Of a stretch of 64,000 nucleotides of DNA, positions 141 to 28,700 are shown one piece after another (the first letter of the stretch is position 1; every line of letters begins with the position of its first letter). The position numbers and the translations under genes are program-made. Under the pieces are notes generated by a model. It did no database searches. It was not told the origin of the DNA and worked only from the letters and a program-made list of their open reading frames with translations. The stretch lies in assembly GCA_026129095.1 (NCBI GenBank), contig JAHCIT010000005.1:1-64000 (forward strand). Direction: 5' to 3'. This DNA is from Deltaproteobacteria bacterium (GTDB taxonomy: Bacteria > JAGRBM01 > JAHCIT01).

Positions 141-1073
141 ATGAATCAGACGGTTCAACGCGCGACGCAAGAACAGCTCACCAAGGTCGACACGAGCGAT
201 AACATTTACAAGGTGGACCTTTGGCTAAAGAGCGCCCCTCAGGGTTACCTTCAAAAGACGCGCTATGGAAAATATGAGGATTGGCCTATCGAAGAAAATC
301 CTCTCCTTTTCCAAGACGGAGATCTGCGTGACCAGCAGCTGATGATGCTGGCGCACTTCGTTGTGGGTGAAAGGGCGGCGCTTTTCTCGGCAGCTGGCTG
401 CATCCCACGGGAGCCCGATCATGCTGCTCGGGGCTTCCTTTCGACTCAGACCGCGGACGAGGGCCGTCATGTGGAAGTATTCTCACAGCGGCTGTTTGAC
501 CTTGGCGTGCGCAAGGATCAGTTCGAGAGTTTTCTCGATACTTGGACGAACCCGCACCTCAAGAACTTCTGCCTGGCGCTGGACGATCTGGTGAAGAACG
601 GGGATTACGTTGCCGCCATTGTCGGCAATAACATTATCCTGGAAGGTCTCGCTTTCAGCGTTTTCGAGTTCTCCAGAGGGATGAGCAAGTTTAGCGATCC
701 CGTGGGTGAACAGGTGCTCTGCGGCGTGATCGCTGATGAACGCCGGCATGTGGGATTTGGCGAAAACCATCTGGCAAAGCTGATCGCCCGTTATCCGGAA
801 AGCCGTGCAAAAGTTCAGGCCGCACAGAAAGAGTTGACAGGTTTCATGTTCGCAAGTTTCAAGAGCATGCTGAAAACTTTTGGCCGGACGATGGAGCGGA
901 CGATCGGGGAGTACAAGGAGGTGCTCGGGGATTTCGAGCCTTACCCTGGAATTAAGCTGTCGCAGGCCAAAGCGGATACCTTGATGGATGCTATGTGGAA
1001 TAAAATGGAAGGTGAATTCAAAGGCCGGCTCCATCGGCTCGGTGTCGAGTATCAAGAACCCTACGCAAGCTGA
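141..1073 (+). CDS. Ferritin-like di-iron oxygenase (R2-like/VlmB-like)
   Basis: The 310-aa protein shows the four-helix di-iron carboxylate ligand pattern: E77, E107-x2-H110, about E168 and E200-x2-H203, the last in an ADERRH motif. That spacing is typical of ribonucleotide-reductase R2-like and N-oxygenase/ligand-oxidase families, which activate O2 to hydroxylate or desaturate substrates. There is no signal peptide, so it is probably cytosolic. The start follows AAGGAG (127-132) with 8 bases spacing. It is the first gene of a unit continuing with UbiB, COQ4 and another di-iron protein. A COQ7-like hydroxylase role is possible by context, but the sequence is not COQ7-like in length. The substrate is unknown. 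Confidence 0.75.
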   Translation: MNQTVQRATQEQLTKVDTSDNIYKVDLWLKSAPQGYLQKTRYGKYEDWPIEENPLLFQDGDLRDQQLMMLAHFVVGERAALFSAAGCIPREPDHAARGFLSTQTADEGRHVEVFSQRLFDLGVRKDQFESFLDTWTNPHLKNFCLALDDLVKNGDYVAAIVGNNIILEGLAFSVFEFSRGMSKFSDPVGEQVLCGVIADERRHVGFGENHLAKLIARYPESRAKVQAAQKELTGFMFASFKSMLKTFGRTMERTIGEYKEVLGDFEPYPGIKLSQAKADTLMDAMWNKMEGEFKGRLHRLGVEYQEPYAS

Positions 1074-1215: not shown

Positions 1216-3435
1216 ATGAGCAAGTTCCAGAAGGGCCCGAACGTAGAAGACTGGGAACCCGGCAGAAACAAACCGGTTGATGCGCCGCCGGACGATCGGG
1301 AGAGCGTCCCGCCGGTGAGAGTCGTATCCGTAGGTAGAACCTCTGGAGTTTCGGGAGCGTGGAGGCCCAAGCCGCTCAAGATCCCGCCCCCTTCGCGGAT
1401 ACCCACTCATGTGGGTGATGCGCCAACAGCGCCGGAGATAGACATCGAGGGCACAGTCGAGCACCGGGCATTTGACGGTCCGTTACCGATCGACCGGTCG
1501 AAGTGGCAGACATCGGTCTCCGAAAAGGAAGAAGTCGCGGGCAGGATGCGGGTGGAGGCGCCACCGGCGCCGCCGAAAATGGTGCCTCGTCCCGAGGTCG
1601 AACCGGCTGTGGAAGTAGCCGCACCGGCGGACACGGCCGAAACAGGCCGCCGCGAGCCACATGATCACGAGGAAGAGATCATTATCGAGCAGAAGCGGCC
1701 TATTGCGGGAAAAGCCAGCAAGTACGGCCAACTTTGCGATCCGGATGCCTTGTCGGTGCTCGAAAAGCCGAACTACTCGGGAATTCCTGCCGATCCTGAA
1801 ATAAAGATTCCCCGGAATCTCCGGCCGAACCCGGCGAGGCTCTCGGAAATCCTCGGCACTCTGGCGAAGCATGGGATATTCATGCAGGTCGAACGGATGC
1901 TCGATCACCCGAAGGACCGAGCCTTTGCCCGGCGGTTACGAATGGCGTTCGAGGAACTCGGGCCCACGTTTATCAAGCTGGGGCAGATGATTGCTTCAAG
2001 TCCGGGGATATTCCCCGAAACGATATCCGACGAATTCCTCAAGTGCCTCGACAGGGTCCCTCCGTTCCCATATTCCGAAGTAAAGAGAATCCTCCGGGAA
2101 GAACTGGGAGACGACTATAAGTCCAGGTTCCGAAATATCGACGTCAAACCCATCGCCGCTGCCAGCATCGCGCAGGTTCATTTCGCGGAACTGGCGGACG
2201 GAACGCCAGTGGTAATTAAAGTACAGCGGCCGGGCATCAAGGCGGTTGTCGAACGTGACGTCGGCATCTTGTTCCTGATCGCCAAGATGCTGGTCCGGTT
2301 TTTCAGGAACGCCCACCTGGCAAGTCCCGTGGACGTCGTATCGGACTTCAACATAACGCTTCATGAAGAACTCGATTTCCGTCTTGAAGCGAACAGCATG
2401 GAAAAGTTTAACGCCGTGTTCGCGTCGGCGGGGAATAAAAGAATCTACGCGGCGAAGGTCCACCGCGAACATTCGACCAGGCGTGTGCTTGTAATGGAGC
2501 GGCTGTCCGGGGCCCGAGTCGATGATATAAAGGGCATCCGCAAGCTTGGAGCCGATCCGGAAGACGCACTCCGCCTTGGTGTTAAGGCTGTGCTCAGGAC
2601 CATGATGCTCCACGGTTTCTTCCATGGGGACGTGCATGCTGGAAATCTGCTCATCACGCCCGATAACGGGGTCCACTTTATGGATTTCGGCATCGTCGGT
2701 CGTCAATCCGTGGAGAAGAGCAAGCTGATGACGCACCTGCTCGTTTCCATGATGGCGGGTACTTACGAAAATCTGTCTGACGTTCTTATCAAGCTTGGAT
2801 CTGCCCCCGAAAATGTCAATCGTTCGGGGCTGACGAGTGACATCAAGAATCTAATGAGAGAATTTAAAGACTCGCCGCTGGGTGAAATTAACTTTGGCGA
2901 TCTTCTGACCTCGATCGTGCAGGCCGCGGTGAAGAACAACGTGAGGCTGCCGAGGGAATTCATTCTCCTGGTGAAACAGATGGTCTATTTCGACCGTTAT
3001 GCACATCTGCTGGCGCCCGATCTGAACATATTTGAGGATCGTTTCCTGATCGACTTCCTCTGGCGGGATCCGCAGGGACGAGAGCGGTATCCGCAGATGC
3101 AGATGATCGGGATGTTACAGAACGTGAGATCCGTCAAAGACCTGCGGAATAACAAACAGCGTTCGTTCAACGAGCTGCCGGAACGGTATCGTGGCCGGTA
3201 CCGCTATATGGATGGCACGCCAATTACTCCAAACGAATTGCAATGCGTAGTATGCAACATTGTCATTATCGCAAAACGCCCGTTCCAGGCTGGCGACCGT
3301 GCTTTTTGCCAACCGTGCGGAACGAAGATGGTGGTGATTGAGAAAGACGGCAAACTTACCGCCGAACCTATTTATTCACCAGATGCCCAAGCGGTGTTCC
3401 AGGTTACGGAAAACCTGCAGGATTTTGCCCAATAA
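1216..3435 (+). CDS. UbiB/ABC1 (AarF) atypical kinase with N-terminal extension and C-terminal zinc ribbon
   Basis: The 739-aa protein is longer than usual UbiB/COQ8 proteins (about 450-550 aa). Residues 1-185 are low-complexity, rich in Pro, Glu and Arg, and probably disordered. The family core follows: a KxGQ-type motif (FIKLGQ, near 252), the Ala-rich nucleotide loop (AAASIAQVH, near 315), a Lys at about 335, HGDVHAGN (near 472) and MDFG. The C-terminus has two CxxC pairs about 22 residues apart (CVVC and CQPC, near 677-701), a likely zinc ribbon. COQ8/UbiB proteins are ATPases that help extract or present lipid intermediates to membrane hydroxylases. A COQ4 homologue follows 29 bases later, supporting such a role. 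No terminal TM helix like that of UbiB is seen. Confidence 0.85.
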   Translation: MSKFQKGPNVEDWEPGRNKPVDAPPDDRESVPPVRVVSVGRTSGVSGAWRPKPLKIPPPSRIPTHVGDAPTAPEIDIEGTVEHRAFDGPLPIDRSKWQTSVSEKEEVAGRMRVEAPPAPPKMVPRPEVEPAVEVAAPADTAETGRREPHDHEEEIIIEQKRPIAGKASKYGQLCDPDALSVLEKPNYSGIPADPEIKIPRNLRPNPARLSEILGTLAKHGIFMQVERMLDHPKDRAFARRLRMAFEELGPTFIKLGQMIASSPGIFPETISDEFLKCLDRVPPFPYSEVKRILREELGDDYKSRFRNIDVKPIAAASIAQVHFAELADGTPVVIKVQRPGIKAVVERDVGILFLIAKMLVRFFRNAHLASPVDVVSDFNITLHEELDFRLEANSMEKFNAVFASAGNKRIYAAKVHREHSTRRVLVMERLSGARVDDIKGIRKLGADPEDALRLGVKAVLRTMMLHGFFHGDVHAGNLLITPDNGVHFMDFGIVGRQSVEKSKLMTHLLVSMMAGTYENLSDVLIKLGSAPENVNRSGLTSDIKNLMREFKDSPLGEINFGDLLTSIVQAAVKNNVRLPREFILLVKQMVYFDRYAHLLAPDLNIFEDRFLIDFLWRDPQGRERYPQMQMIGMLQNVRSVKDLRNNKQRSFNELPERYRGRYRYMDGTPITPNELQCVVCNIVIIAKRPFQAGDRAFCQPCGTKMVVIEKDGKLTAEPIYSPDAQAVFQVTENLQDFAQ

Positions 3436-3464: not shown

Positions 3465-4190
3465 ATGAAAAGTCAAAATCCATATGCTCTCCGACCTTTT
3501 CAGGCCTTGGACGCGGTCCATAAGGGAATCCAGAATCCTGACGACACAAAGCAGGCCGCCCGGATGGTTGAGGCAGTTCAGGGGCGAGCGCCGCTGCGGA
3601 TGCTCCGGCGGGTTCGGAGGAATCCTCTGGGACGGAAACTCCTTGCGGAAAAGCCGGATCTCCTTGCCGCACTCCAAGACGCCCAGTGGCTCGCCTCTCT
3701 TCCCGAGGGGACGCTAGGCAGGAGTTATTACGAATTTTGCCGCCGGGAAAAGCTGACGCCCGGAGGGCTATACAAAGCGGTTGAGGATGGATTTGACCGG
3801 GAACGGTTTGAGATGCTTGGCGAAGATGAAAAATTTCTCCAGATGTGGATGCGGGATACTCACGATCTATTCCACGTCGTCACCGGCTACCAGACTGATC
3901 TACTCGGCGAAATAAGCGTGCTGGCGTTCAGTGCGGTCCAGACCCGCAACCCGGGCGTTTGGTTCATGGTTCTGGCTGGAGCGTGCATTCTGGCCCAGCG
4001 GCGAATGATCAACCCGACGCTATTGATGGGGGCCCTTCGGATGGGTATTCGGGCACGAAACGTGGTTGTTACGGACTGGAAAGGTATGCTGTCACTGCCG
4101 CTTGAAGAGGTAAGAAACCGTCTGAACATAACTCCGGCCCCCGCATACGTACCGCTGTATACGAGTCTCGTCCGGATGGAAGTGGCCTGA
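3465..4190 (+). CDS. COQ4 family protein
   Basis: This 241-aa protein contains the signature HDxxH-x11-E exactly: H133, D134, H137 and E149. In COQ4 this motif binds a divalent metal, and COQ4 has been linked to oxidative decarboxylation of the coenzyme Q head group at C1 and to organising the COQ complex. The start follows GAGGAG (3451-3456). It lies between UbiB and a ferritin-like gene, with no other ring-modification gene in the window. That suggests a COQ4 paralogue recruited to a non-ubiquinone or modified-quinone substrate. The family call is firm; the substrate is inference. Confidence 0.88.
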   Translation: MKSQNPYALRPFQALDAVHKGIQNPDDTKQAARMVEAVQGRAPLRMLRRVRRNPLGRKLLAEKPDLLAALQDAQWLASLPEGTLGRSYYEFCRREKLTPGGLYKAVEDGFDRERFEMLGEDEKFLQMWMRDTHDLFHVVTGYQTDLLGEISVLAFSAVQTRNPGVWFMVLAGACILAQRRMINPTLLMGALRMGIRARNVVVTDWKGMLSLPLEEVRNRLNITPAPAYVPLYTSLVRMEVA

Positions 4191-4235: not shown

Positions 4236-5123
4236 ATGAATGTAAATATCGAACATCTGCTAGATCTTTCGAAAAAAGGACAGTGGTCGGTGAAGGACTA
4301 TGACTGGGCTACGCCGATCCGCGATACCGACGATCTCGGGCCGCGTGAACGCAGGATGCTGGGTCTAGTCTTCCTTTTCACGGCCGGTGTGGAGAAGTTG
4401 GGAGCCGAGGCATTTCGGATCAATGCCAAGAATACCCGGGATTCCGACGTACGGGAATTGTTCGAAATCATAGCCAGTGACGAAGACCGTCATGCCGCTG
4501 CGGAAACGCTTCTGGCAGAGCGATTGGGTGTCGAGTGGGAGGACCTTTCCCCTTTGATCAGGATGGCTTTCAAGAAGCTATCCCGTGATTTACGGCAGAT
4601 GCAAGATTGTCCCTCCCGTGCCTCCCGGGTTTTCCACGAGATCGTCGGAACCCAGATCATTCTGTTCGAACTTGCTCTGGACGCACTCTGGAGTCCGACG
4701 ATCAAGGAAATGATGCGGGATCCGTTCCAGGATGAAATAATCCGCCTGATTGATCGGGATGAGTCGCGCCATCTCGCAATGGATTACTGGCTTCTGGATC
4801 AGAAGGGCTTGGGGTATCACCGGGCGAATCTTAGTCCCGCCGGGATTCTGCTGAACCTGCCTATTCGATTGCCGTCCGCGCTCCTTGGCGGGACGGCATT
4901 TCTCACATTTTTCTGGAAAATGAGAAGCTTGAATATAAATTCGGCTCGCTTCCAGGACTACTGGGACCGGGTGATTGATATCCCCACAAAGGCACCAAAT
5001 GCCCGATGTTTCCCCGTGCACCGGAATACGGTCGAAATACTCCAGCAAACCATCGATTTCCTCAGTGGCCATGACTATTTATTTCGCGGTTTCATGCTCG
5101 GCGTGACTGGCCGGCTGGTCTAG
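4236..5123 (+). CDS. Ferritin-like di-iron protein, second type
   Basis: The 295-aa protein has ferritin-superfamily helices with GVEKLGAEAF (near 51-60), E83-x2-H86 (SDEDRH), a helix with E135/E145, and E176-x2-H179 (RDESRH). These could supply a di-iron site as in COQ7, rubrerythrin or desaturase-like proteins. It is not similar in sequence to the first gene, so the two are not a recent duplication. Residues about 205-230 are hydrophobic, suggesting membrane contact. The start follows AGGAG (4222-4226). It is the last gene before a 290-base gap holding an IS21-type end. A hydroxylase acting with COQ4 and UbiB is plausible but unproven. Confidence 0.65.
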   Translation: MNVNIEHLLDLSKKGQWSVKDYDWATPIRDTDDLGPRERRMLGLVFLFTAGVEKLGAEAFRINAKNTRDSDVRELFEIIASDEDRHAAAETLLAERLGVEWEDLSPLIRMAFKKLSRDLRQMQDCPSRASRVFHEIVGTQIILFELALDALWSPTIKEMMRDPFQDEIIRLIDRDESRHLAMDYWLLDQKGLGYHRANLSPAGILLNLPIRLPSALLGGTAFLTFFWKMRSLNINSARFQDYWDRVIDIPTKAPNARCFPVHRNTVEILQQTIDFLSGHDYLFRGFMLGVTGRLV

Positions 5124-5411: not shown

Positions 5412-6275
5412 ATGGAAGTGAAGCCTATATCTATTGATCGCCATCCTCGGCGTTCACTGCGCAAAACACACGATATCCCAATCCGTAAATTTGACTTCCC
5501 TATCAAGCGGGAAGGGGATTATGCCTTTCCCGACCGTCCTGCAGAATCGCACTTTCTGCACATCCTGTCTCTGTTTTTCCCGGAGGGAGAGCGCTTCTTC
5601 GTCGACTCGGTGATGAATTACCGCGATCAGATCAAGGACGAGAAGCTTCGCCAGCAGATTCGAGGTTTTGCCGGGCAAGAGGCCCAGCACGCAAAGCAGC
5701 ACGCGAAATACAATGACAGAATTGCCAAGCCGCGAATTCGGACGGATTGGCTGGATCCCGTTCAGGATGTACTGTTCAAACTCGCACGGAAGCTGCCCAA
5801 AAAGGTCCAGCTTGCGGCGACAGTCGGTGCCGAACACTTTACGGCGCTTCTGGCCGACAAGGTCCTTCGACACCCGGAGATCGTCAAAGGTTCCAATCCA
5901 GATCATCAGGCCTTGTGGATGTGGCACGCGGCAGAGGAAACCGAACATAAAGCGGTTGCTTTCGACGTCTATCGGGCAATCGGTGGTGGCTATGTAATTC
6001 GTGTGGCCACAATGACAGCGCTATCAACAGCTCTGGTGCCCGGCATCGCGGGAATGATGATCTATTTCATGGCGGCGGACGAGAAGCTGTTCTCTTTTAA
6101 AGACTGGCGCTCTTTTGGGCAATGGGCTTTCGGGGAGGGCGGAATGTTCTCGGATTTTGTGGGCCCTTTTGTCGCTTTCTACCGGCCGGGTTTTCATCCT
6201 TGGCAACAGGATAACTCTGCCCTCTTGGAGAAATGGAAAGGGCTGCAGGGCAATCAGACGTCGGCCCAGGCATGA
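5412..6275 (+). CDS. PF10118/COG3687-type predicted metal-dependent hydrolase (ferritin-like)
   Basis: The 287-aa protein matches the 'predicted metal-dependent hydrolase' family by its N-terminal DIPIRKFDFP and FFPEGERFF region and by E90-A-Q-H93. Candidate metal ligands are E60, E90-x2-H93, E141 and E176-x2-H179. This is a di-iron-like pattern, so it may really be an oxygenase-type four-helix protein rather than a hydrolase. Residues about 200-225 are hydrophobic. The family often occurs beside flavin monooxygenases and SDRs, as here. The start follows AGAGGA. It opens the second unit of the cluster. The biochemical activity is unknown. Confidence 0.75.
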   Translation: MEVKPISIDRHPRRSLRKTHDIPIRKFDFPIKREGDYAFPDRPAESHFLHILSLFFPEGERFFVDSVMNYRDQIKDEKLRQQIRGFAGQEAQHAKQHAKYNDRIAKPRIRTDWLDPVQDVLFKLARKLPKKVQLAATVGAEHFTALLADKVLRHPEIVKGSNPDHQALWMWHAAEETEHKAVAFDVYRAIGGGYVIRVATMTALSTALVPGIAGMMIYFMAADEKLFSFKDWRSFGQWAFGEGGMFSDFVGPFVAFYRPGFHPWQQDNSALLEKWKGLQGNQTSAQA

Positions 6276-9077: not shown

Positions 9078-10487
9078 CTATGCGGTGGTCGCGCGCTGTT
9101 CCGTGGTAGCTTTGCTAGATAATACGCTGAGGTAGGTTATCGCAATCGGCAGAAAATCGACCTTCGGCATATGCAATTCGAGAGGTACCGGCGCGGTGGC
9201 GAGTACGCGGGCGAGCAGCGCGTAATGATGGGGAACGGACACTATCCGATGTTCATCGTTCAGGGCCACGAATTCCGCAGTCATTTCCGAGAGATTATTC
9301 CGTAACAGATCGATCAGGCTGGTGCCATCCCGGAAAAATCCCAGTATCTCGTCAGTTATCCGGATCCCTTGTCTGACCCACAGATCGAACGATTCACGCG
9401 TCTGGAGCCGGGTCCGGAACCCCTGGTTCCAAAGTGCATCAGTAATCTGATCATGTTGACGCGTCAGATAGCCGTTAACCACGCGAACTACGTCGGTCCG
9501 AAAACCTTCCGGGAAATCCTTGGTGCATCCAAAGTCGAGCATGACCAAAGTCGCGGTGGATCCTGAGGATCCCGGCGTCTCATCGAGCACCATGAAATTA
9601 CCAGGATGCGTATCGGCTTGGAAGAAGCCGTAGTATGAAATCGTGAAAAACAGACATTCGACCAAGCAGCGGAATATCCAGTTCTTTTTATCAGTTGGAA
9701 CCTGCGGATCGGAGTACCAGGGAACGATCTTGCGTGCCTGGATAAATTCCATGCAAAGAATAGCATCGCGGCAATACTCTTCATAAAGGCGCGGTACAAC
9801 GACCATTCTGCGGTCCCTCAGCCCTTTAAGCTGCTCGTACATCCGGATCTGATTCCGGGCCTCGTTGCGATAATCGAGTTCAAGATGGATGTGGGTCGTA
9901 AACTCGTCGATCAATACTGAAAATTCAATGCCTGACGATTCGCGATAAAATCCCCATTCGAGGATTTTGACGAAAATAGGCAGCATAAGCCGGACAACCT
10001 TGATGTCAGCGAAAAAGAACTTGTCGATTCCAGGATATTTGACCTTGATGACGGCTTCCCGGCCGTCTTGGAGCGTGACGCGATGGACTTGTCCGATGGA
10101 AGCACATGCCAGAGGGACTGGATCGAATTTCGCGAACACCTCTTCGGCCGGCTTGCCATACTGTTCGATAATCCGCTGGCGAACCTCCTTCTCGGAGGCT
10201 GTAGGCATCTGATCCTGCATTTTGACCATCTCCATCAGATATTGCGTGGGAAGAAATGCAGCCTGAGTGGAGAGGAACTGTCCGATTTTGATATACACGC
10301 CCTTAAGACGGACAAAATCCGCATAAAGCCGCTGGGCATTTCGGCTATGCAGGGCGTCCATCTTTTCCCGCCGAATCCCTTTCGGTGTACGACGATATGT
10401 CACAAGCCCAAACCACACGTAGCTGGCGAGTATCTTTGAGAATAATAAAACAGCAATGACCGCGCGGATTGAGCGGAATTTTAGCAT
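9078..10487 (-). CDS. Second UbiB/ABC1 atypical kinase
   Basis: Starting at the ATG preceded by GGAGGAAAGGA, the protein has 469 aa and opens with a hydrophobic segment (about 8-30) that may anchor it. Family motifs are KIGQ (VYIKIGQF), the nucleotide loop as ACASIGQVH (Cys replacing one Ala of the usual AAAS), KVKYPG, HPGN and LDFG. It diverges strongly from the UbiB at 1216-3435 and lacks its long N-terminus and zinc ribbon. An in-frame ATG 29 codons upstream exists but has a weaker ribosome site. It faces the patatin gene tail to tail and is divergent from the MBL gene, the only minus-strand gene in this cluster. Confidence 0.85.
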   Translation of the reverse strand: MLKFRSIRAVIAVLLFSKILASYVWFGLVTYRRTPKGIRREKMDALHSRNAQRLYADFVRLKGVYIKIGQFLSTQAAFLPTQYLMEMVKMQDQMPTASEKEVRQRIIEQYGKPAEEVFAKFDPVPLACASIGQVHRVTLQDGREAVIKVKYPGIDKFFFADIKVVRLMLPIFVKILEWGFYRESSGIEFSVLIDEFTTHIHLELDYRNEARNQIRMYEQLKGLRDRRMVVVPRLYEEYCRDAILCMEFIQARKIVPWYSDPQVPTDKKNWIFRCLVECLFFTISYYGFFQADTHPGNFMVLDETPGSSGSTATLVMLDFGCTKDFPEGFRTDVVRVVNGYLTRQHDQITDALWNQGFRTRLQTRESFDLWVRQGIRITDEILGFFRDGTSLIDLLRNNLSEMTAEFVALNDEHRIVSVPHHYALLARVLATAPVPLELHMPKVDFLPIAITYLSVLSSKATTEQRATTA

Positions 10488-10756
10488 TTTATCAATTTCC
10501 TTTCCTCCAGACAATAGCCCACCATCAAAGCGGCCAAAGATCGTCATGTCTCCACGGCTCGAAGGATAGAGCATAATATAAATTTAATACTAGACATACT
10601 AGCATAGTTATTGCTATATTTGCCGAGGGGCGTGAGCTAAGAGCATTGTCTTTTAATAGGTCTAGGGGCCCAGATTGTGCAATTGGGCCACAAAGGCGTG
10701 GGCTTTACCTGTAGAAGATTTCGCAAGGGATTTGGTTATAAGGCATCGAAGAATAA
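10488..10756. promoter_or_regulatory. Divergent intergenic region, AT-rich core
   Basis: This 270-base region separates two divergent genes. Its core (about 10575-10625) is strongly AT-rich, with TATAAATTTAAT-like stretches and two ACTAG copies 11 bases apart (10590s). It probably holds back-to-back promoters and a shared operator. No ORF or RNA gene is recognisable. Confidence 0.35.
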
Positions 10757-18642: not shown

Positions 18643-19944
18643 GTGTCCAGGCGGCGTGGAAAAGGCGAAGGTTCGATTGTCGAGCGAAGGCCCGGCCAGT
18701 GGCTGGCCGTCCTGACCGTCGGCATTGATGCGAACGGCCGCCGGCGGCGGAAGTACGTTTATGGAACGACCAAGAAGGCGGTTCAGGATAAACTGCTGGC
18801 GCTCCGGAGCGATGCCGCGCGGGGATTGATTGTGGCCACCGACCGGATGACGATTGCGGAATTCCTCCGCCGATGGCTCAAGGATTCAGCAAAACTCAGA
18901 TTGAGGCCCACGTCCTATGACCGGTTCGAATGGTTTGTCGAGAAGCAGATTCTGCCGCGAATTGGCGGGGTGCAGCTTACCGCACTAACGCCTGCCCACG
19001 TCCAGGCGCTTTATGCCTCTATGATTCGGGACAAGAAGTCTGCGCGCGCATGCCAGCATGTGCATGTGATTCTTCATTCTGCATTAAACGAGGCCCTGAG
19101 ATGGGGCCTTGTCTCCCGTAACGTCTGCGACGCTGTCCGGAGACCCCGGCATGTGAGCAAGCCTATCCAACCTCTGGATAAGGAACAGGTTCAGAAGTTT
19201 CTCAAACATACCCGCGGAAAGAGGCTTGAAGCGCTCATGATCCTGGCGCTGACCACAGGACTCCGGCAGGGAGAGCTTCTTGCTCTCGATTGGAAGGATC
19301 TGGACCTTGCCGCCGGCACGGTGAGTGTGCGGAAGACGCTTGTAGAGATCAAAGGGGAGTTCTCCATCGGTGAACCCAAGACCGCGCAATCGAACCGGCA
19401 GGTACGGCTGCCGGAAATCGCAGTGCAGGTTCTGAAGGTGCATAAGGAAAAGATGCTGGCCGAAGGGAACATCTCGGCACCGGTATTCTGCGACTCGGAC
19501 GGCGGATATATCCGCAAGAGCAATCTGCTTCGTCGGGACTTCCGGGGGATACTCAAGGCAGCGAAGTTGCCGATGATCCGGTTCCATGACCTGCGCCATA
19601 CGTTTGCGACACTGTCGATTGCCGAAGGCGTACCGATCAAGGTGATCCAGGAGGCGCTTGGTCATAGTTCCGTCACCCTTACGCTCGGGACCTATTCCCA
19701 TGTGCTTCCATCGATGCAGGAAGAGGCCGTCACGAAGCTGAATCGGCTGTTCGGAACGCTGGATTCCCAAGATAGGTTGTACTTAGGTTGTACGAAGGCT
19801 CCGGAGGGTGCCCCAGCGAAGAAGCGGGCTCGGAGAAAGTCCAAGGAAAAACAGGAAGTTAACGATGGTGGCTGGGGTGGGGGTCGAACCCACGACCTAC
19901 GGCTTATGAGACCGTCCGAGATGGGGTTCCACAGGTGGCAATGA
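18643..19944 (+). CDS. Tyrosine site-specific recombinase (integrase)
   Basis: The 433-aa protein starts with GTG after GGAG (18632). It has an AP2-like arm-binding N-terminus, a SAM-like core-binding domain (about 65-150, TIAEFLRRWLKD) and a catalytic domain with Arg in TGLRQGELLALDW, H-x-x-R in FHDLRHTFATL, His in LGHSSVTL and the nucleophile in GTYSHV. All catalytic residues are present, so it may be active. The last ~25 codons (GGGRTHDLRLMRP) are read from a tRNA-derived attachment core, a common feature when int abuts att. The true C-terminus therefore depends on what the element is joined to. Confidence 0.93.
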   Translation: MSRRRGKGEGSIVERRPGQWLAVLTVGIDANGRRRRKYVYGTTKKAVQDKLLALRSDAARGLIVATDRMTIAEFLRRWLKDSAKLRLRPTSYDRFEWFVEKQILPRIGGVQLTALTPAHVQALYASMIRDKKSARACQHVHVILHSALNEALRWGLVSRNVCDAVRRPRHVSKPIQPLDKEQVQKFLKHTRGKRLEALMILALTTGLRQGELLALDWKDLDLAAGTVSVRKTLVEIKGEFSIGEPKTAQSNRQVRLPEIAVQVLKVHKEKMLAEGNISAPVFCDSDGGYIRKSNLLRRDFRGILKAAKLPMIRFHDLRHTFATLSIAEGVPIKVIQEALGHSSVTLTLGTYSHVLPSMQEEAVTKLNRLFGTLDSQDRLYLGCTKAPEGAPAKKRARRKSKEKQEVNDGGWGGGRTHDLRLMRPSEMGFHRWQ

Positions 19945-20037
19945 CGATCCAGAATCGTCTGAAAATCAATAGGTTGCATTGCTTTTGAAATCTGCTGGCG
20001 TCTGCTGAAACCACCTGTTTCCATGGATAGGTTGTAC
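19773..20037 (+). repeat. Arm-type direct repeats around the attachment core
   Basis: TAGGTTGTAC occurs at 19773-19782, 19784-19793 and 20028-20037, with a variant TAGGTTGCAT at about 19970-19979. The first two are one base apart. They flank the tRNA-derived core at 19866-19913 on both sides, the layout of integrase arm-binding sites in an attP. Confidence 0.6.
19866..19913 (-). other. Attachment core: 3' half of a tRNA-Met(CAT) gene
   Basis: On the minus strand the sequence gives an anticodon loop CTCATAA, a T-arm (GTGGGTTCGACCCCCAC), acceptor strand CCCAGCC and ACCA. The 5' half of a tRNA (D-arm, acceptor 5' strand) is absent to the right, so this is not a functional tRNA. It is the integration target carried by the element, or a displaced copy of it. 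Confidence 0.8.
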
Positions 20038-20184
20038 GGGGTTGCTCACGGCAGGGCGATACGGACCGATAAGGGCTCCCTCTGCGACTGTTGCTCATGC
20101 TCAGTGTAAGAACTTCCTCACTGCTGCGTCCTCCATTCCAGGGAAAGCCACTTATCTGGCACCCACAGACAGGAGTAATCGGAA

Positions 20185-22413
20185 ATGCCACGCGACCACA
20201 CTTTTCACCACACACACACACGCAGTAATGGCAACGACCACAATTGTCATGCTCATGGCCACGCCAGGCATTCTCCAGCCGTCACACCCGCCAAGTCTGA
20301 TTTTTACACCTGCCCAATGCATCCCGAAGTAGTGCAGGAAGGGCCGGGAAATTGTCCCAAATGCGGGATGGCACTGGAGCCAGTGACTATTGCTGTCCAG
20401 ACCGAAGAAAACACTGAATTCAATGACATGTCACGCCGGTTCTGGATCAGTCTAGCGCTGACGTTCCCCATATTTCTCCTCGCCATGGGTGAGATGATCC
20501 CCGGGCAATCATTGAGCTGGCTGTTACCGCCGCAACCGACACGCTGGATCCAGTTTTTTCTTGCTACCCCAGTTGTAATGTGGGGTGGCTGGCCATTTTT
20601 CGAACGGATGTGGACATCTTTTCGCAACCGTCACCTGAACATGTTCACCTTGATTGGCATTGGCACCGGTGCTGCATGGGGCTTTAGTGTAGCGGCATTA
20701 CTGGTTCCAGAAATGTTTCCGGCCGGATTCCGGGGACATAACGGAGAAGTTGGGATCTATTTCGAAGCAGCTTCTGTGATTGTTGTGCTTGTTTTGCTCG
20801 GCCAGGTTCTGGAATTGAAAGCGAGAGACCGCACAGCAGGCGCGATCCGGACGTTAATGGATATGGCACCCAAGGTAGCACGGCGCGTAGATCCAGATGG
20901 AACGGAAACAGATATACCCCTGGAGCAAGTTGCAACGAACGACATCCTCCGGGTGCGGCCAGGCGAAAAAATCCCCGTTGACGGGATCATCCAGTCTGGG
21001 AGAAGTTCAGTGGATGAAGCACTTCTTTCGGGCGAGTCCATTCCAGTTGAAAAGGGACCAGGAGATTCGGTCACCGGCGCGACCCTCAACGTAAATGGCA
21101 CATTTTTGATGCAAGCCAGGCAGGTCGGTTCAGCTACAGTTCTGGCCCGTATCGTGCAAATGGTTGGAGAAGCTCAACGCAGCCGTGCTCCGCTCCAGAA
21201 ACTTGCTGACCGGGTTTCAGGGATATTTGTTCCAGCAGTAATTGCCATCGCGGCGATTTCCTTTGCTATTTGGTCAATATGGGGGCCTCAACCTGCATAT
21301 GCATATGCGTTAGCCAGTTCGGTAACCGTGCTCATTATCGCCTGCCCATGCGCACTAGGCTTGGCAACGCCAATGTCAGTCATGGTAGGCGTCGGCCGGG
21401 GAGCGACGATGGGAGTGTTGATCCGAAATGCTGAAGCACTGGAGGCAATGTCCAAAATCGATACCCTTGTCGTTGACAAGACCGGAACACTGACCGACGG
21501 TCGGCCTAAACTGACAAGCATTGAGTCTCTCGGCAGTTGGAATGAGGAAGAGATTCTTCGTCTTGCTGCCGGGCTTGAATTGGGTAGTGAGCATCCACTG
21601 GCTGCATCTATCCTGGCAGCAGCAGAAGACCGGAAACTATCTCCGTCGCTGGTCAGCGGCTTCCAGTCAATCCCGGGGCAAGGCATAGTTGCTTCTCTGA
21701 ACGGAGAACCGGTCGTGCTCGGCAACACCAAACTGATGGATGCCCAGGGGATTGATGTGAATAGTGCAGGAGACCGAGCGAATACAATGCGCTCTCATGG
21801 ACAGACGGTAATGTTTCTCGCTGTCGCGAACCGCTTGCAGGGACTCATAGGTGTCGCTGATCCTGTACGTGAGAGTACTCCTGAGGCAATCCGGGCACTT
21901 CGTGAAGAAGGCGTGCATATTATAATGTTGACCGGAGACAGCCGGATTACAGCCAAGGCAGTCGCCAGTACGTTAGGAATTGACGAGGTATACGCAGAGG
22001 TTTCACCGGCCCAAAAGCATTCGGCAATAAAGCGACTCCAGGCTGAGGGGCGTAAAGTCGCCATGGCGGGCGACGGAGTAAATGATGCCCCCGCCCTGGC
22101 TCAGGCCCATGTTGGAATCGCCATGGGTAATGGCACCGATGTGGCCATGGAGAGTGCGGGAATCACCCTTTTAAAAGGGGACCTTCGAGGCATTGTCAAG
22201 GCACGCCGTCTTAGCCGGGCGACTGTGCAGAATATCCGACAAAACCTGTTTTTTGCCTTTATATACAATGCATTGGGAGTACCAGTGGCAGCTGGAGCTC
22301 TGTATCCCGCATTCGGCATTCACCTCAATCCCATGTTCGCTGCTGCCGCCATGAGTCTTAGCTCGGTATCGGTCATCGTAAATGCCCTGCGGCTCCGAAA
22401 GACGGCCCTATAG
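20185..22413 (+). CDS. Copper-translocating P1B-type ATPase
   Basis: In this 742-aa protein residues 1-35 are His-rich, followed at 41-68 by a heavy-metal-binding domain of the CPMHP...CPKCGM type rather than a CXXC ferredoxin-like domain. The P1B core has the ion-path CPC (about 387-389), TGES-like [19 protein letters not shown] (D431 phosphorylated), SEHPLA and GDGVNDAP (about 628). CPC with this N-terminus is typical of Cu(+)/Ag(+) exporters (CopA/CopB-like). It pumps ions from cytosol to periplasm, where CusCBA could pass them outside. AGGAG precedes the ATG by 9 bases. Confidence 0.93.
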
Positions 22414-22511
22414 TGATGATCTCCGTTACGCGGACACTTTCCACAGGTTCACGCCTCCTTTGCCTAAGTGGACTTGCTCCCATTCTGAACAGCGATCAAA
22501 ATGGAAAAGGC

Positions 22512-22916
22512 ATGCGGTTAAAGAAGGCTATACCCGTCGCGCTGGTTGCGTTTTTCACGCTGCAGACAGCTGTCTCGCTTGCCTGTGAGCAGCGGTGCCA
22601 TCGTCCCCTACAAACCGTCAATGAGGTTGAAGTCGATGCCGATTTACCGCCCTGCCACCGGGGAGCCGCAACGCCGGACAACTCTCCGGTAGACAGCCAG
22701 CCCTGCTCCTTCAAGGGATGCATGGACTTGCGGTCATTGGATTCTTCCCACGCAAGCGCGCCGGTCAGTATTCCACTTTCAGGAATCATGATCGCCTTCC
22801 TGTCGTATGCTCCAGGAGTGGATACAAACAAGACTGCCGTTTTCAGCCAATATGCCGGCTTAAGCCCCCCGGCAACCGCGGCTCAAAATCTTGCCACGGT
22901 CATCCTGACACTCTGA
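22512..22916 (+). CDS. Small exported Cys-rich protein
   Basis: From the internal ATG the protein has 134 aa: a Sec signal peptide (MRLKKAIPVALVAFF, cut near AVSLA), then a short mature part with six Cys (CEQRC, PPCH, QPCSFKGC). Near the end is a second hydrophobic stretch. An upstream in-frame ATG at 22413 would add 33 unlikely residues. Cys plus His and position between a copper ATPase and a Cus pump suggest a periplasmic metal carrier or sensor. I do not recognise the family. Confidence 0.5.
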   Translation: MRLKKAIPVALVAFFTLQTAVSLACEQRCHRPLQTVNEVEVDADLPPCHRGAATPDNSPVDSQPCSFKGCMDLRSLDSSHASAPVSIPLSGIMIAFLSYAPGVDTNKTAVFSQYAGLSPPATAAQNLATVILTL

Positions 22917-23059
22917 TCTGTATGTAGTGCCGGTGCATTCTCGCGCCTGCATGTAGCCCTTCGTCGCATCCACCTGTTTCCGGCTCTGGAGCCTGCGTCC
23001 AAGTAACCTATTCTTGGGCGATGACTCGGAGGCCTTGGCACGGCGAAACTGGTTCGCCG

Positions 23060-24430
23060 ATGGATCTGGTCATGAAACCACTATCTTCTGTCAATAATCA
23101 TTTTTCCCGGTGCATCCGGCTTTCGGCCTTGCTGCTTGCCGCCGCACTGGGCTTTGCGGTTCCGGGGTTTGCTGCCCCCCCACCCGTTACGCTGGAGGCA
23201 CTTCTGGCAGAGGCCATCCGCGTCAACCCGCAGCTTGCCGCCGCCCGGTCAAGCGCAGAAGCAGCACAGCAGATGGAACACATCGAAGGCGCGCTGCCGG
23301 ATCCGGAGTTTGTGTTCCAGTACATGGTTACGCCCGCTGAAACCAGGGCTGGGCCGATTCGCTACCGCTTTGAACTGGAGCAAATGGTTCCCTTCTGGGG
23401 CATACGGGGCTTCCGCCGGGAGGCGGCACGAAAGGAGGCAAAGGCGATACGACTGGACTCGGTGGAACGTGAACTTGACGTACTGAGTGAACTGGCCGTC
23501 GCATTCCACGACTGGGATTACGCAGAAGCGGCGCTCAGGATCAACTTCAAAAACAGGGACTTGCTCAATCAGCTCCGCGAGCTGGCTGAACAGCTCTATG
23601 CCGCCGGACAGGTTCCACAAAGCGATACTCTCAAGGCTGTTGTGGAAATAGCCCGGGCCGATGTGGCCGATGCCGGGTTCCGGCGAATGTCGGAGACCGC
23701 TCAAGCGGAAATAAGCGCAATCCTGAACCGCCCGCTTGCCGTCAGCCTGGGCCAGCCGCTCACTGCGGATATGAACTACCCGGTACCAGATCTCGATTCA
23801 CTGGCCGCACGGGCACTTGTCCGGCGCCCGGATCTCCTGGCTGCCGAAGCGATGACAGAGGCCGAACAGGCGCGTCTGGACCTTGCGCGGCGTGAATACT
23901 GGCCAGACCTCAAACTCGGAGCCATGTATGCGCCCGTCAAGGGTGGAACCAACCCCACATTCATGGCTGACGGAGACGACGATTTCGCCATCAAGGCGGG
24001 CATCAACATACCGCTGCAAATCGGACGCCGCCGGGCAGCAGTCGCGGGCAGTACAGCCCGGCTGGAGGCACGCCGGCATGAGCGGGAAGCGCTTAAGGTT
24101 CAGTTGATCCATAAGATTCACGAGCGCCACGAACGGGTACGGGAAACGGAGGCCGTGCTTGATCTCTACCGGAGCCGGATACGCCCCGCTGCAGAGCTTG
24201 AGCTGGAATCAGCCAGGGAAGGATATGTAACCGGACGACTCGGCTTTATCGGCCTGCTCGACAGCCAGCGTTCCTATATAGGTGTCTTGTTTGAAGAAGC
24301 TGCCGCACGGCGCGATCACCGGCAGGAACTGGCCCGACTTTTCAGAACCGCAGGGCTGCTGCCGACAGGGCAGGAGCCGGCCGGGTCCGGCGAACCTCCA
24401 TCTACCCGCCTTGAAAGGAATCTCCCATGA
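23060..24430 (+). CDS. TolC/CusC-family outer-membrane efflux channel
   Basis: It has a signal peptide (about 5-36, ending GFAAP) and two OEP repeats. Long amphipathic helices carry the family pattern: VTLEALLAEAIRVNPQL at the first and DLLAAEAMTEAEQARLDLA at the second. The length (about 456 aa) fits CusC/CzcC. The channel forms a trimer joining the RND pump to the outside. Start codons at 23021, 23060 and 23072 are possible; 23060 or 23072 gives the normal signal peptide. It overlaps the next gene by 4 bases, so the pump genes are translationally coupled. Confidence 0.88.
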   Translation: MDLVMKPLSSVNNHFSRCIRLSALLLAAALGFAVPGFAAPPPVTLEALLAEAIRVNPQLAAARSSAEAAQQMEHIEGALPDPEFVFQYMVTPAETRAGPIRYRFELEQMVPFWGIRGFRREAARKEAKAIRLDSVERELDVLSELAVAFHDWDYAEAALRINFKNRDLLNQLRELAEQLYAAGQVPQSDTLKAVVEIARADVADAGFRRMSETAQAEISAILNRPLAVSLGQPLTADMNYPVPDLDSLAARALVRRPDLLAAEAMTEAEQARLDLARREYWPDLKLGAMYAPVKGGTNPTFMADGDDDFAIKAGINIPLQIGRRRAAVAGSTARLEARRHEREALKVQLIHKIHERHERVRETEAVLDLYRSRIRPAAELELESAREGYVTGRLGFIGLLDSQRSYIGVLFEEAAARRDHRQELARLFRTAGLLPTGQEPAGSGEPPSTRLERNLP

Positions 24431-25719
24431 AAACATTCATCGAAAAATACCGGACTCTCATCGGGAGCATGGCCATCGTCGCCGGCGGGCTCCTGATCTA
24501 CCTGTATCTGAACCCTCCAGCAGACACCTCTAGCTTGCATTCCCATGATGCGGGTCTGGAAACCCATGGCAGCCATGGTACGGTGACTCAGGCAGAACTG
24601 TGGACCTGCTCCATGCATCCGCAGATCCGTCACGATAAACCGGGTGCATGTCCCATTTGCGGGATGCCACTTGTACCGGTAACGGGCCAGGCCGCCAACA
24701 AGCTTGCTGTGGAAACCGATATTGTCCGGAGGCAGCCGCTTAACCGGGAAATACGGGCGGTCGGCAAACTCGCTGTCGATGAAACACGACTTGGATATAT
24801 CACGGCCCGCGTGGGCGGACGTGTGGACCGGCTTTATGTGGGTTTTGTGGGAGCCCCCGTCAGGAGAAACGACCCGCTCGCGGAAATCTACAGTCCGGAA
24901 CTGCTCGTCGCCCAGCGCGAACTGCTGCTCGCTGCCTCCAGGCCGGGCGCATCCGGACAGTTGCTGGAACTGGCCCGGACGAAACTCCGGTTATGGGGCC
25001 TGCTGCCAGCCCAGATAAGCGAAATTGAGGCATCCGGACAGCCCCGGACCCATATCACTCTTTTTGCGCCCCAGGCCGGAACAGTAATCGAAAGGAATGT
25101 TCTTGAAGGCCAGTACGTGAAAGAGGGTGATGTGCTGTTCCAGATTGCCGACTTGAGCACGCTGTGGCTCAACCTCGATATCTACGAAAGCGACTTGTCC
25201 TGGATACGAACCGGCCAGACAGTCGATATCAATGTTGAATCGTACCCCGGCGAATGGTTTTCGGGAACCGTCGCCTTTATTACACCGATGATGGATGACG
25301 CCACGCGTACGGTTCGGGTGCGCGTAAACGTCAGCAACCCGGATGGGCGGATGAAACCGCTGATGTACGCATCGGCGGTCATCCGTGTGCCGTGGAAGTC
25401 CGGAACAGAAAAATTGCCTCTGGCGGTTCGGGCCTCGGCAGTGCTGGATACCGGCACGCGCAAGGTTGTCTACCGGCAGACTCCAGACGGGAATTTTGAG
25501 CCTGTGGACGTAAAACTAGGCCCCCTGTCCCTGGGGGATGACGCGCAGTCCAGGCCCGGACGCTACTACCCAGTGATAGACGGACTCGGCGAAGGTGATG
25601 AGGTGGCCGTCCGCGGCGCTTATCTCATCGACAGCCAGCGGCAGATTGATGGATCGCCAAGCCTTCTGTACCCGGAAGGGCATGGCGGAACCCATGACCA
25701 TTCCCATCACGGGCACTGA
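24427..25719 (+). CDS. cusB: CusB-like periplasmic adaptor with heavy-metal-binding domain
   Basis: The 430-aa protein has an N-terminal membrane anchor or signal (about 9-28), a His-rich linker and a CSMHP...CPICGM heavy-metal-binding domain (59-85) like that of the ATPase upstream. Adaptor domains follow: barrel-sandwich (VGGRVDRLYVGFVGAPVRR), hairpin (SPELLVAQRELLLA), beta-barrel and membrane-proximal regions. CusB-type adaptors receive Cu(I)/Ag(I) and pass it to the RND pump. The C-terminus is His-rich (HGGTHDHSHHGH), an added metal-binding tail. The gene overlaps the channel gene and precedes cusA by 19 bases. Confidence 0.9.
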   Translation: MKTFIEKYRTLIGSMAIVAGGLLIYLYLNPPADTSSLHSHDAGLETHGSHGTVTQAELWTCSMHPQIRHDKPGACPICGMPLVPVTGQAANKLAVETDIVRRQPLNREIRAVGKLAVDETRLGYITARVGGRVDRLYVGFVGAPVRRNDPLAEIYSPELLVAQRELLLAASRPGASGQLLELARTKLRLWGLLPAQISEIEASGQPRTHITLFAPQAGTVIERNVLEGQYVKEGDVLFQIADLSTLWLNLDIYESDLSWIRTGQTVDINVESYPGEWFSGTVAFITPMMDDATRTVRVRVNVSNPDGRMKPLMYASAVIRVPWKSGTEKLPLAVRASAVLDTGTRKVVYRQTPDGNFEPVDVKLGPLSLGDDAQSRPGRYYPVIDGLGEGDEVAVRGAYLIDSQRQIDGSPSLLYPEGHGGTHDHSHHGH

Positions 25720-25738
25720 AACGCAGGGTATAAGAATC

Positions 25739-28700
25739 ATGAGCTATCTTATCCGCTGGTGTCTCGATAACCGCCTCCTCGTCGTCATACTGTCGGCGGC
25801 CATCCTCGCTGGAGGCTTTCTTTCACTCCGCCATCTTCCGGTCGATGCAATTCCCGACATCGGCGAAAAACAGGTGATCGTTTACGCCGACTGGCCGGGC
25901 CGTTCCCCCCAGGATGTCGAAGACCAGGTGACCTACCCGCTTGGCGTAAGCCTTCAGGGAACACCCGGTGTCCGCAACATCCGCACCATGTCGGGATTCG
26001 GCTTTTCAATGGTATTCGTCATTTTCCGGGATGAGGTGGACTACTACTGGGCCCGCTCACGGACGCTGGAAAGGCTCAGTGCCGCGCAATCCCGCCTTCC
26101 TCAGGGGGTGGTGCCCGTCCTCGGCCCGGATGCGACGGCACTGGGACAGATCTACTGGTACACGCTGGAAGCCGATGGCGCGAATCCGGCCCAGCTCCGG
26201 TCCCTGCAGGACTGGTACGTCCGCTACCAGCTCAATGCGGTCGAGGGTGTATCCGAAGTCGCAAGTGTCGGAGGATATGTCCGGCAGTACCAGATCGATG
26301 TGCATCCCGACCGCCTGCGGGCTCACCGGGTCACGCTTCCGGAGGTGTACGAGGCTGTTGTCCGGAGCAATATCGACGTCGGAGCCAAGGTGGTCGAGCA
26401 GAACGGGCTTGAATTTTTCATCCGGGGTGTCGGGTTTCTCAAAGGCATCGAGGATATTGAAAACATTGTGATCCGGCAGGAAGGCGGAACTCCCCTCCTT
26501 GTCCGGAATGTCGCACACGTCACCATGGGCCCGGATTTCCGCCGTGGCGGCCTGGACAAGAGGGGCCGGGAGGCAGTGGGCGGAGCCGTCACCATGCGGT
26601 ATGGCGAGAACCCCCTGGCAGTACTGGAACGGGTCAAGGAGCGGATCAGGGAGATAGAATCCGGCCTCACGATAACGCTTTCAGACGGCCGGCAGGTTCC
26701 GGTGCATATCGTCCCGTTCTACGACCGTAGCGCTATCATTCAGGAGACTCTCGATACACTGGCCAAGGCACTGACTGAGGAAGTGCTGGTTGTGGCCGGC
26801 ATCGTGCTGGTCTTCCTGCTGCACCTGCGCAGTTCACTCGTCATACTTCCCACGCTGCCGCTGGCGCTCGCGAGCAGTTTTCTCCTGATGTACTGGCTGG
26901 GCGTCGACGGCAACATCATGTCCATGGCGGGTCTGGCCATCGCGATCGGCGACATTGCCGACATGGGCATCATCATGACCGAGAACATCTACCGGCGGCG
27001 GCTCGAGGAACCGGACCGTCCCCATCTGGAGCTGGTCCGGGAAGCAGCGGCCGAGGTGGCGACCCCCATCTTCACGGCCGTTTCAAACACGCTGATATCC
27101 TTTATCCCTGTCTTTTTTCTTACCGACCAGGAAGGGAAACTGTTCAAGCCGCTCGCTTATACAAAGACATTCGCCATCGGTGCGGCCGTGGTATTTGCCA
27201 TCGTGCTGGTTCCAGTTCTTTCCTACTACCTGCTGAATCCGAAACGGCTTTCGGTGCGGGTTTCAGGCCTCGTGGCATCACTCACCGGGATAGCGGCCTC
27301 GATTGCATCGGGACTGCTGATTACCAGCTCACTCGAAGGCCGGGCCGGATGGACCGGCTGGCCGGCGGCCGCCGGTATCGGCGTGATTTCGGGTTTCATC
27401 GTTTACCGGCTGGGCCGCGAGCGCCTGATACCGGTGGATGACAACGTGGTATCACGCTTCATCCACGGTGCCTACCGTCCGGCGCTCCGGTGGGTACTCG
27501 CCCACAAGATGCTGTTCCTGATGCTGCCCGCCGGCCTCGTTGCCACCGGTTTCATGATTTTTGTCCGGACCGGGCGGGAGTTCATGCCACCTCTGGATGA
27601 GGGGTCCATTCTCTACATGCCATCCCTGCTTCCATCGGCGTCGCTGACCGAGGTACAGGCCGCACTGGCCAGGCAGAACGTGGCGATCGAATCGGTTCCG
27701 GAAATAGCCAGTGTCGTCGGCAAGTTCGGCCGCACCGATTCCCCCCTCGATCCGGCCCCGGTCAGCATGATCGAGACCGTGATCATGCTGAAACCAAAGG
27801 GACAGTGGCGGCCGGTCCCCGTCGAGCGGTGGCATACCGGAGTGCACTGGCTTTCCGTACTGCACCCGCTGCTAGACAGGGTGTGGCCTCCATACCGGGA
27901 TCGCACGAAGGAGGATATTCTCGCCGAGCTACAGGAAGTTACCGATATCCCCGGGGTGCTGCCGACATGGCTCCAGCCAATCCAGACGCGCCTTATCATG
28001 CTGCAGACCGGATTCCGGGCGATGATGGGGGTGAAGATCTACGGCTCCGACCTGAAGGAAATCGAGCGTATCGGACTTGAAATGGAGCAGATCCTGAAAG
28101 CGGTCCCCGGCGCGACCGACATCGTGGCCGACCGGATCATCGGAAAGCCCTATCTGGAGTATGAAATCGACCGCCAGGCCATCGCCCGGTACGGGGTCAG
28201 CGTTCGTGATGTACAGGACATCATTGAAATGGGCATTGGCGGCGAAAACCTTACGAGTACGGTCGAAGGCCGTGAACGCTATCCAGTACGCGTCAGATAC
28301 CCCAAGGAGTTGCGCGAGGATTTTGACAGCCTCCAGCGGATACCGGTTCCTGCCGCCACTGGCGCCCAGATTCCGATCTCGCAGCTTGCCCGCATACGGC
28401 ACCGGACCGGCCCACAGGAAATCAAAGGCGAAAACGGCCTGCTGGTCGGCTATGTGACGATGAATACCCGCGACCGGGACGAAGTGAGCGTGGTTGAGGA
28501 TGCCGAGCGGCTGCTTCGCGCCGAAAAGGAAAAAAGCGACCGCCTCCTCTCGGAAGGCCGGCCTGGAGAAGTCACGCTACACGTACCGCCCGGTTACCAC
28601 TGGGAGTGGGGCGGGCAGTTCGAGAATCAGCGCCGGGCGGCGGAGCGGCTCGCCGTGCTCGTGCCACTCGTCCTTCTCGGAATGTTCATCATGATCTATC

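Follow-up and report, generated by a model that had tools for sequence, protein, structure and literature searches.

Three roles have been proposed for the COQ8 proteins, namely substrate extraction, metabolon organisation and the phosphorylation of COQ3 (PMC8346625; PMC7615680). In the available parts of these two papers the Coq8 ATPase is described as possibly extracting hydrophobic precursors (PMC8346625), and COQ8B as fuelling the COQ metabolon in an ATP-dependent manner (PMC7615680). The targets of UbiB/COQ8 proteins, as well as the route by which they reach their enzymes, are still unsettled. With regard to architecture, the accessible text of a 2005 survey records C-terminal TM segments for archaeal ABC1 kinases and, in a single ABC1 kinase, a Usp domain at the N terminus; the word zinc is absent from that text (PMC1262709). 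The literature that we searched on ABC1/UbiB/AarF kinases with a zinc ribbon or finger, and on COQ4 in Myxococcota, does not describe the fusion architecture reported here, which names a candidate partner for a kinase of this type.

Within the window (the whole stretch of 64,000 nucleotides analysed, belonging to a genome of 3.67 Mb that we refer to as G000), a 739 aa ORF on the + strand (1216..3435) encodes an ABC1 (UbiB/COQ8-like) kinase with a fused four-cysteine ribbon at its C terminus. Its predicted start is the ATG at 1216, with GGAG at 1207–1210, five bases 5′, and an in-frame stop a few codons 5′ of the ATG. As an earlier, sequence-only reading of this DNA had proposed, the protein begins with some 185 disordered residues: the N-terminal extension (residues 1–188; 1216..1779, + strand) is Pro/Glu-rich, of low complexity and predicted to be disordered, with pLDDT <50 throughout in an AlphaFold2 model that is of high confidence from residue ~200 to 625 (the input to the model and to the structure alignment was the window protein with 48 of the 73 scorable ABC1 relatives). 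A shorter version of the extension is kept in L010, the sole full-length relative, which is encoded by a genome of the same order but another family (G001). Almost no counterpart to the first ~50 residues is present in L010, and residues 53–68 and 149–205 form islands that are better kept (69 and 54 % identity, respectively). Judged from this comparison, the extension is coding, and its constraint is weaker than that elsewhere in the protein.

The kinase core has in common with COQ8A/COQ8B, UbiB and ABC1 kinases the fold as well as the KxGQ, Ala-rich loop, ExD, HxDxHxGN and DFG motifs. The ABC1 domain (PF03109; residues 278–520; 2047..2775, + strand) scores 215.6 bits against a Pfam cut-off of 22.9 (E 7.5e-64), and the AAAS loop (314–317), K335, HGDVHAGN (470–477) and DFG (490–492) are in place. 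The sequence-only reading had set the protein against COQ8 types, in which an N-terminal KxGQ extension usually serves regulation. A loss or replacement of this element did not hold up, as KLGQ is present at residues 254–257 (1975..1986, + strand), where K254 and Q257 are invariant in all 49 rows of an alignment of the window protein with 48 relatives, and superposes on the corresponding region of human COQ8A. Over the whole predicted kinase fold, the comparison with COQ8A (7udp) gave a Z of 29.0 and an rmsd of 3.8 for 364 aligned residues, the KxGQ region included. On sequence and model, the core looks competent and of the COQ8 type; a pseudokinase was rejected because the catalytic residues, among them K335, D472, N477 and D490, are all intact.

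Compared with COQ8A/COQ8B and UbiB, however, the window protein adds a 188-residue disordered N terminus and a four-cysteine ribbon, falls below the UbiB equivalog cut-off and is without the C-terminal TM pair. Its match to the NCBIfam UbiB equivalog TIGR01982 (residues 233–607) reaches 328.7 bits, under the curated cut-off of 487.55, and no hydrophobic stretch reached the threshold, which in most UbiB-type relatives is passed by two segments near the C terminus that are read as TM; an ordinary membrane-anchored UbiB was rejected on these two grounds. In a tree built from 402 columns of 59 kinase domains (32 of the 80 relatives from the first genome set were taken in), the window protein and L010 fall inside a clade of ten rows with support of 97/92, the other members being Myxococcales proteins, the paralogues L039 and L040 of the window phylum, a protein of G058 and two Nocardia proteins. 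Most members of this clade (L039, L040, L103, L105, L107 and L011) have no C-terminal TM segment, and L104, likewise one of the closest relatives, has none either. As the nearest branch was thus anchor-less already, the ribbon is an addition to that branch, and the initial idea that it took the place of an anchor has to be given up.

The C-terminal CxxC...CxxC itself, appended to a COQ8-like kinase, proved to be real. A linker (residues 609–648; 3040..3159, + strand), lying in a section that is 85 % identical to L010 (609–660), leads into the ribbon module (residues 649–720; 3160..3375, + strand), which we delimited by homology to a stand-alone ribbon protein of Myxococcota. The first CxxC (residues 677–680; 3244..3255, + strand) and the second (698–701; 3307..3318, + strand) are invariant in 42/42 aligned ribbon sequences, which also keep F, E, P, Y-R, Y-R, G, N-E and G-D. 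With cysteines at 677, 680, 698 and 701, the tail has the spacing CxxC-x17-CxxC in common with LysW, LIM and DksA-type ribbons and treble clefs, the cysteine spacing of DksA being that of the window ribbon, yet no family is convincingly matched by any of the 42 ribbon members. Searches of the 42 sequences against Pfam and NCBIfam returned weak matches only, in Pfam mainly to zinc fingers and ribbons, and no family model that covers the ribbon; among the PDB profile matches, the LIM protein CRP1 (E 0.022) ranks first. Models of the tail were poor, with a pLDDT of 61 when it was modelled alone from a single sequence and block means of 57–74 over the cysteine region of the full model. The module has the look of a ribbon or treble clef that is not yet catalogued, and its cysteine spacing, together with the weak profile matches, would be compatible with zinc as the bound metal.

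Should the metal be iron, the ribbon could be a rubredoxin-like electron donor to a diiron oxygenase, and the fusion would tie the kinase to electron delivery. The module does adjoin diiron oxygenases, which need electrons, and in rubrerythrin an Fe(Cys)4 domain occurs together with a diiron domain of the ferritin-like kind. Very weak rubredoxin-type matches were also obtained (2/42 in Pfam, best 0.096; 1/42 in NCBIfam, 0.055), and 15/42 sequences have a weak match to DmmA, a dimethylamine monooxygenase subunit family of NCBIfam (best 0.032). In rubredoxin, however, the CxxC pairs are followed by glycine, whereas those of the ribbon mostly are not, and zinc ribbons and fingers match better, if still weakly (LysW 9.4e-4, CRP1 LIM 0.022); an iron-binding electron donor is accordingly a reading that we regard as unlikely. 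Much further down the scale stands a LysW-like carrier protein that would present an attached substrate to the oxygenase. LysW was weakly matched in Pfam by 9/42 members (best 9.4e-4), LysW complexes head the Foldseek matches of the tail (E 0.31, non-significant), and the last residue of the stand-alone ribbon proteins is almost always Tyr. That Foldseek query was, however, a low-confidence model; moreover, LysW uses a free C-terminal Glu, whilst the fused ribbon runs 19 residues past Tyr720, so that its end is not free.

L010 and the window protein are 67 % identical and of the same architecture, and in the tail, where all four cysteines are kept, identity rises to 80 %. Between the two, dN is 0.12 for the ribbon, 0.12 for the linker, 0.16 for the kinase and 0.62 for the N-terminal extension (residues 1–200), with dS at or near saturation. 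By this measure the ribbon is constrained as strongly as the kinase. As the fusion is common to two genomes of different families, G000 and G001 being the whole of our sample of the phylum, an assembly or frameshift artefact was rejected.

Elsewhere, a C-terminal CxxC pair was found in 0/128 other ABC1 ORFs, so that this search of architectures upheld the claim that the domain order is unusual. The tally is made up of 0/73 in a first genome set, where 73 of 80 ORFs were scorable and seven were left unscored, and 0/55 in a second set of 57 distinct ORFs that includes the window protein and L010. In a contig scan that found 80 kinase relatives, and no tail, three rows match as far as residue 712–716; the ORFs of L123 and L150 have no C-terminal Cys pair, and L125 is among the unscored. 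A contig scan with the tail alignment, whose two exact peptide patterns derived from the linker and not from the ribbon, found no relative. Plasmids gave only kinase-domain matches by tblastn, all <60 % identity, and the tail search in the phylum of G058 covered one genome. Against 386 diverse genomes, the tail profile recovered G000 and G001 and otherwise six weak matches (E 0.001–0.01), with L066 among them. Outside the phylum, relatives mostly begin close to the kinase and have no such cysteines, which goes halfway towards refuting the sequence-only reading; what stands of it is that the one full-length orthologue, L010, has both extensions and that the cysteine module recurs elsewhere as a conserved family. 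The G143 locus L066:1480-1899 joins a related ribbon (profile E 8.8e-7) to the domain of a ferredoxin-thioredoxin reductase beta chain (Pfam E 1.1e-9).

A lineage-specific invention of the ribbon was also considered, and was overturned by matches in the phylum of L105 (a Myxococcales bacterium record), where the ribbon exists as a stand-alone protein in 43/377 sampled genomes, with E-values mostly of 1e-12 to 1e-16. These proteins are ~95 aa long (about 90–135 aa where a start could be assigned) and share 35–44 % identity with the window tail. From the 45 tail matches in the 43 genomes, 40 regions from 39 genomes were examined; the matches outside these regions are G742 and G701 (strong) and G416, G421 and G635:C4 (weak). 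In 38/40 regions a gene of the type that we call FerA, a ferritin-like diiron oxygenase, ends ≤700 bp upstream of the ribbon on the same strand, and in 29/40 there are two FerA-type segments upstream, distances being taken from BLAST segment ends and script-chosen starts. The other two regions are L230, cut by a contig end, and L246, where FerA is adjacent but divergent. At least two ExxH motifs are kept in 65/65 long FerA segments. These proteins make up a Myxococcota ribbon family, so far uncatalogued, whose genes are tied to those of diiron oxygenases, and the window tail, as far as can be read from sequence, is a member by both of its traits, namely homology with the four cysteines and an adjacent FerA gene. 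COQ4 is present in 4/40 regions. In L247 (9425-11885), the ribbon gene is followed at a distance of 1 kb by three consecutive genes, namely an AurF-type diiron gene, COQ4 and one resembling cytochrome oxidase subunit III, and COQ4 is near the ribbon also in L236.

This neighbourhood bears on what the ribbon might bind. The sequence-only reading had offered a protein or a nucleic-acid partner, and the first of these is backed by the FerA gene beside the stand-alone ribbon. Binding to DNA or RNA, which would make the kinase a regulator, draws on a generic similarity to zinc fingers and on that earlier suggestion; the conserved neighbours, however, are oxygenases and not regulators or RNA genes, and no nucleic-acid-binding family scored above its cut-off, so that we attach very little probability to it. 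The ribbon might also have no partner and be a passive appendage that stabilises or dimerises the kinase, ribbons often being small structural modules and the fusion being confined to two genomes. Against this, the same module stands alone in a conserved spot beside FerA, and is as constrained as the kinase when fused; we think a passive role improbable, if less so than nucleic-acid binding. An ABC1 kinase was found in 0/40 of the Myxococcota ribbon regions and the ribbon in 0/15 genomes holding close ABC1 relatives, and it is therefore the fusion by itself that links kinase and ribbon.

In the window, FerA (141..1073, + strand) ends 142 bp before the kinase-ribbon gene begins, and in G000 and G001 alike it is the gene immediately upstream of the fusion, as orthologues of 83 % identity. 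Its profile matches the PDB entry 6d9f, a 'putative VlmB homolog' (E 7.4e-24), followed by R2lox (6.5e-9), and six ligand-type residues (E77, E107, H110, E168, E200 and H203), invariant in 14/14 sequences, place it with VlmB and the ferritin-like diiron oxygenases AurF, R2lox and aldehyde-deformylating oxygenase. VlmB, in the available text, is the oxygenase required for the azoxy group of valanimycin and acts after VlmO (PMC11705231); FerA differs from VlmB in being tied to a ribbon gene or to the kinase-ribbon fusion. Downstream of the fusion is a COQ4-like gene (3465..4190, + strand; PF05019 E 4.1e-29), the profile of which matches PDB 6e12 and 3msq. Its product carries an HDxxHx11E metal motif at residues 133–149, kept in 6/6 COQ4-like sequences and equivalent to the Zn site H142/D143/H146/E158 that the available text reports for the COQ4 decarboxylase (PMC7615680). 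FerB (4236..5123, + strand), a second ferritin-like protein with two ExxH motifs, has a 60 % identical orthologue in G001. It is followed by a PF10118 gene ('predicted metal-dependent hydrolase'; 5412..6275, + strand), again with two ExxH motifs, that was not found in the examined part of the G001 cluster, and near the window cluster there is a second ABC1 kinase without a ribbon (9078..10574, − strand), the 68 % identical orthologue of which is also near the cluster in G001. The block of FerA, kinase-ribbon, COQ4 and FerB is thus common to both genomes, with the order of COQ4 and FerB swapped in G001. COQ4 is rare, being present in 5/290 sampled genomes; there are three copies in G000 and five in G001, the other homologues being located on G000:C4, G000:C3 and four G001 contigs (L191-L196). 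A second kinase-FerA neighbourhood is found in G001 at L050 (G001:C57), where an ABC1 kinase lies beside a FerA-like gene (32 % identity) on the same strand.

The grouping recalls the eukaryotic COQ metabolon of COQ4, the diiron protein COQ7 and COQ8, in that a kinase, a COQ4-like protein with its metal motif and ferritin-like diiron proteins are likewise brought together. It differs, however, as FerA is VlmB-like and not COQ7, and ubiquinone is unlikely as the product. Of the two UbiA-family enzymes in G000, one is a heme o synthase and the other is MenA-like, and no UbiH-type hydroxylase scored above its cut-off in this genome, which is 96.65 % complete; a ubiquinone role for the kinase-ribbon cluster is therefore unlikely on genome content. 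MqnA/MqnD of the futalosine pathway were not found in G000 at the same completeness. In G001 four UbiA-family matches were obtained, one of them classified. ABC1 proteins are numerous in both genomes, with 15 Pfam matches in G000 (12 of E <1e-50) and 15 in G001 by protein search, and many form orthologous pairs in the tree. Elsewhere in G000 (G000:C2:219898-226774), only a few kb separate the MenA-like prenyltransferase from this genome's canonical UbiB-type kinase, which does bear TM segments, a proximity hinting that the UbiB type serves menaquinone here.

We consider it about an even chance (probability roughly 0.5) that the ribbon docks the COQ8-like ATPase to which it is fused onto a complex of FerA diiron and COQ4-like proteins, the substrate of which would be some lipid and not ubiquinone. 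We infer the docking from the classical fusion argument: a module that is a separate protein next to an oxygenase in one phylum, and part of a kinase behind the same oxygenase in another, points to a physical link. Against this proposal count the facts that kinase and stand-alone ribbon were in no case found side by side, that the fusion is in two genomes only, that COQ4 lies in just 4/40 of the ribbon regions and that the tail models are poor. Under this proposal, FerA-type diiron oxygenase complexes would have the ribbon as their docking subunit, and through the fusion the kinase would be kept in one soluble complex together with FerA, the COQ4-like protein and FerB. ATP turnover there might present or release a hydrophobic substrate, probably one other than ubiquinone, or phosphorylation might drive assembly, as has been proposed for COQ8. 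More tentatively, and with the balance tipped somewhat against it, the ribbon could be a subunit, not described before, that is dedicated to a family of tandem VlmB-like diiron oxygenases and that became fused, in one rare phylum, to a COQ8-like ATPase. The outcome would be a soluble, anchor-free kinase-COQ4-diiron machine that modifies lipids and needs no ubiquinone, in other words a bacterial counterpart to the COQ metabolon in which the kinase is physically wired in. As a soluble set free of any anchor, FerA, kinase-ribbon, COQ4 and FerB are open to direct expression and testing.

Further along the window, where no tRNA was found between 14000 and 35000, a P-type ATPase for heavy metals and an RND efflux system come after a phage-type integrase (18643-29170), the whole probably representing a metal-resistance island.
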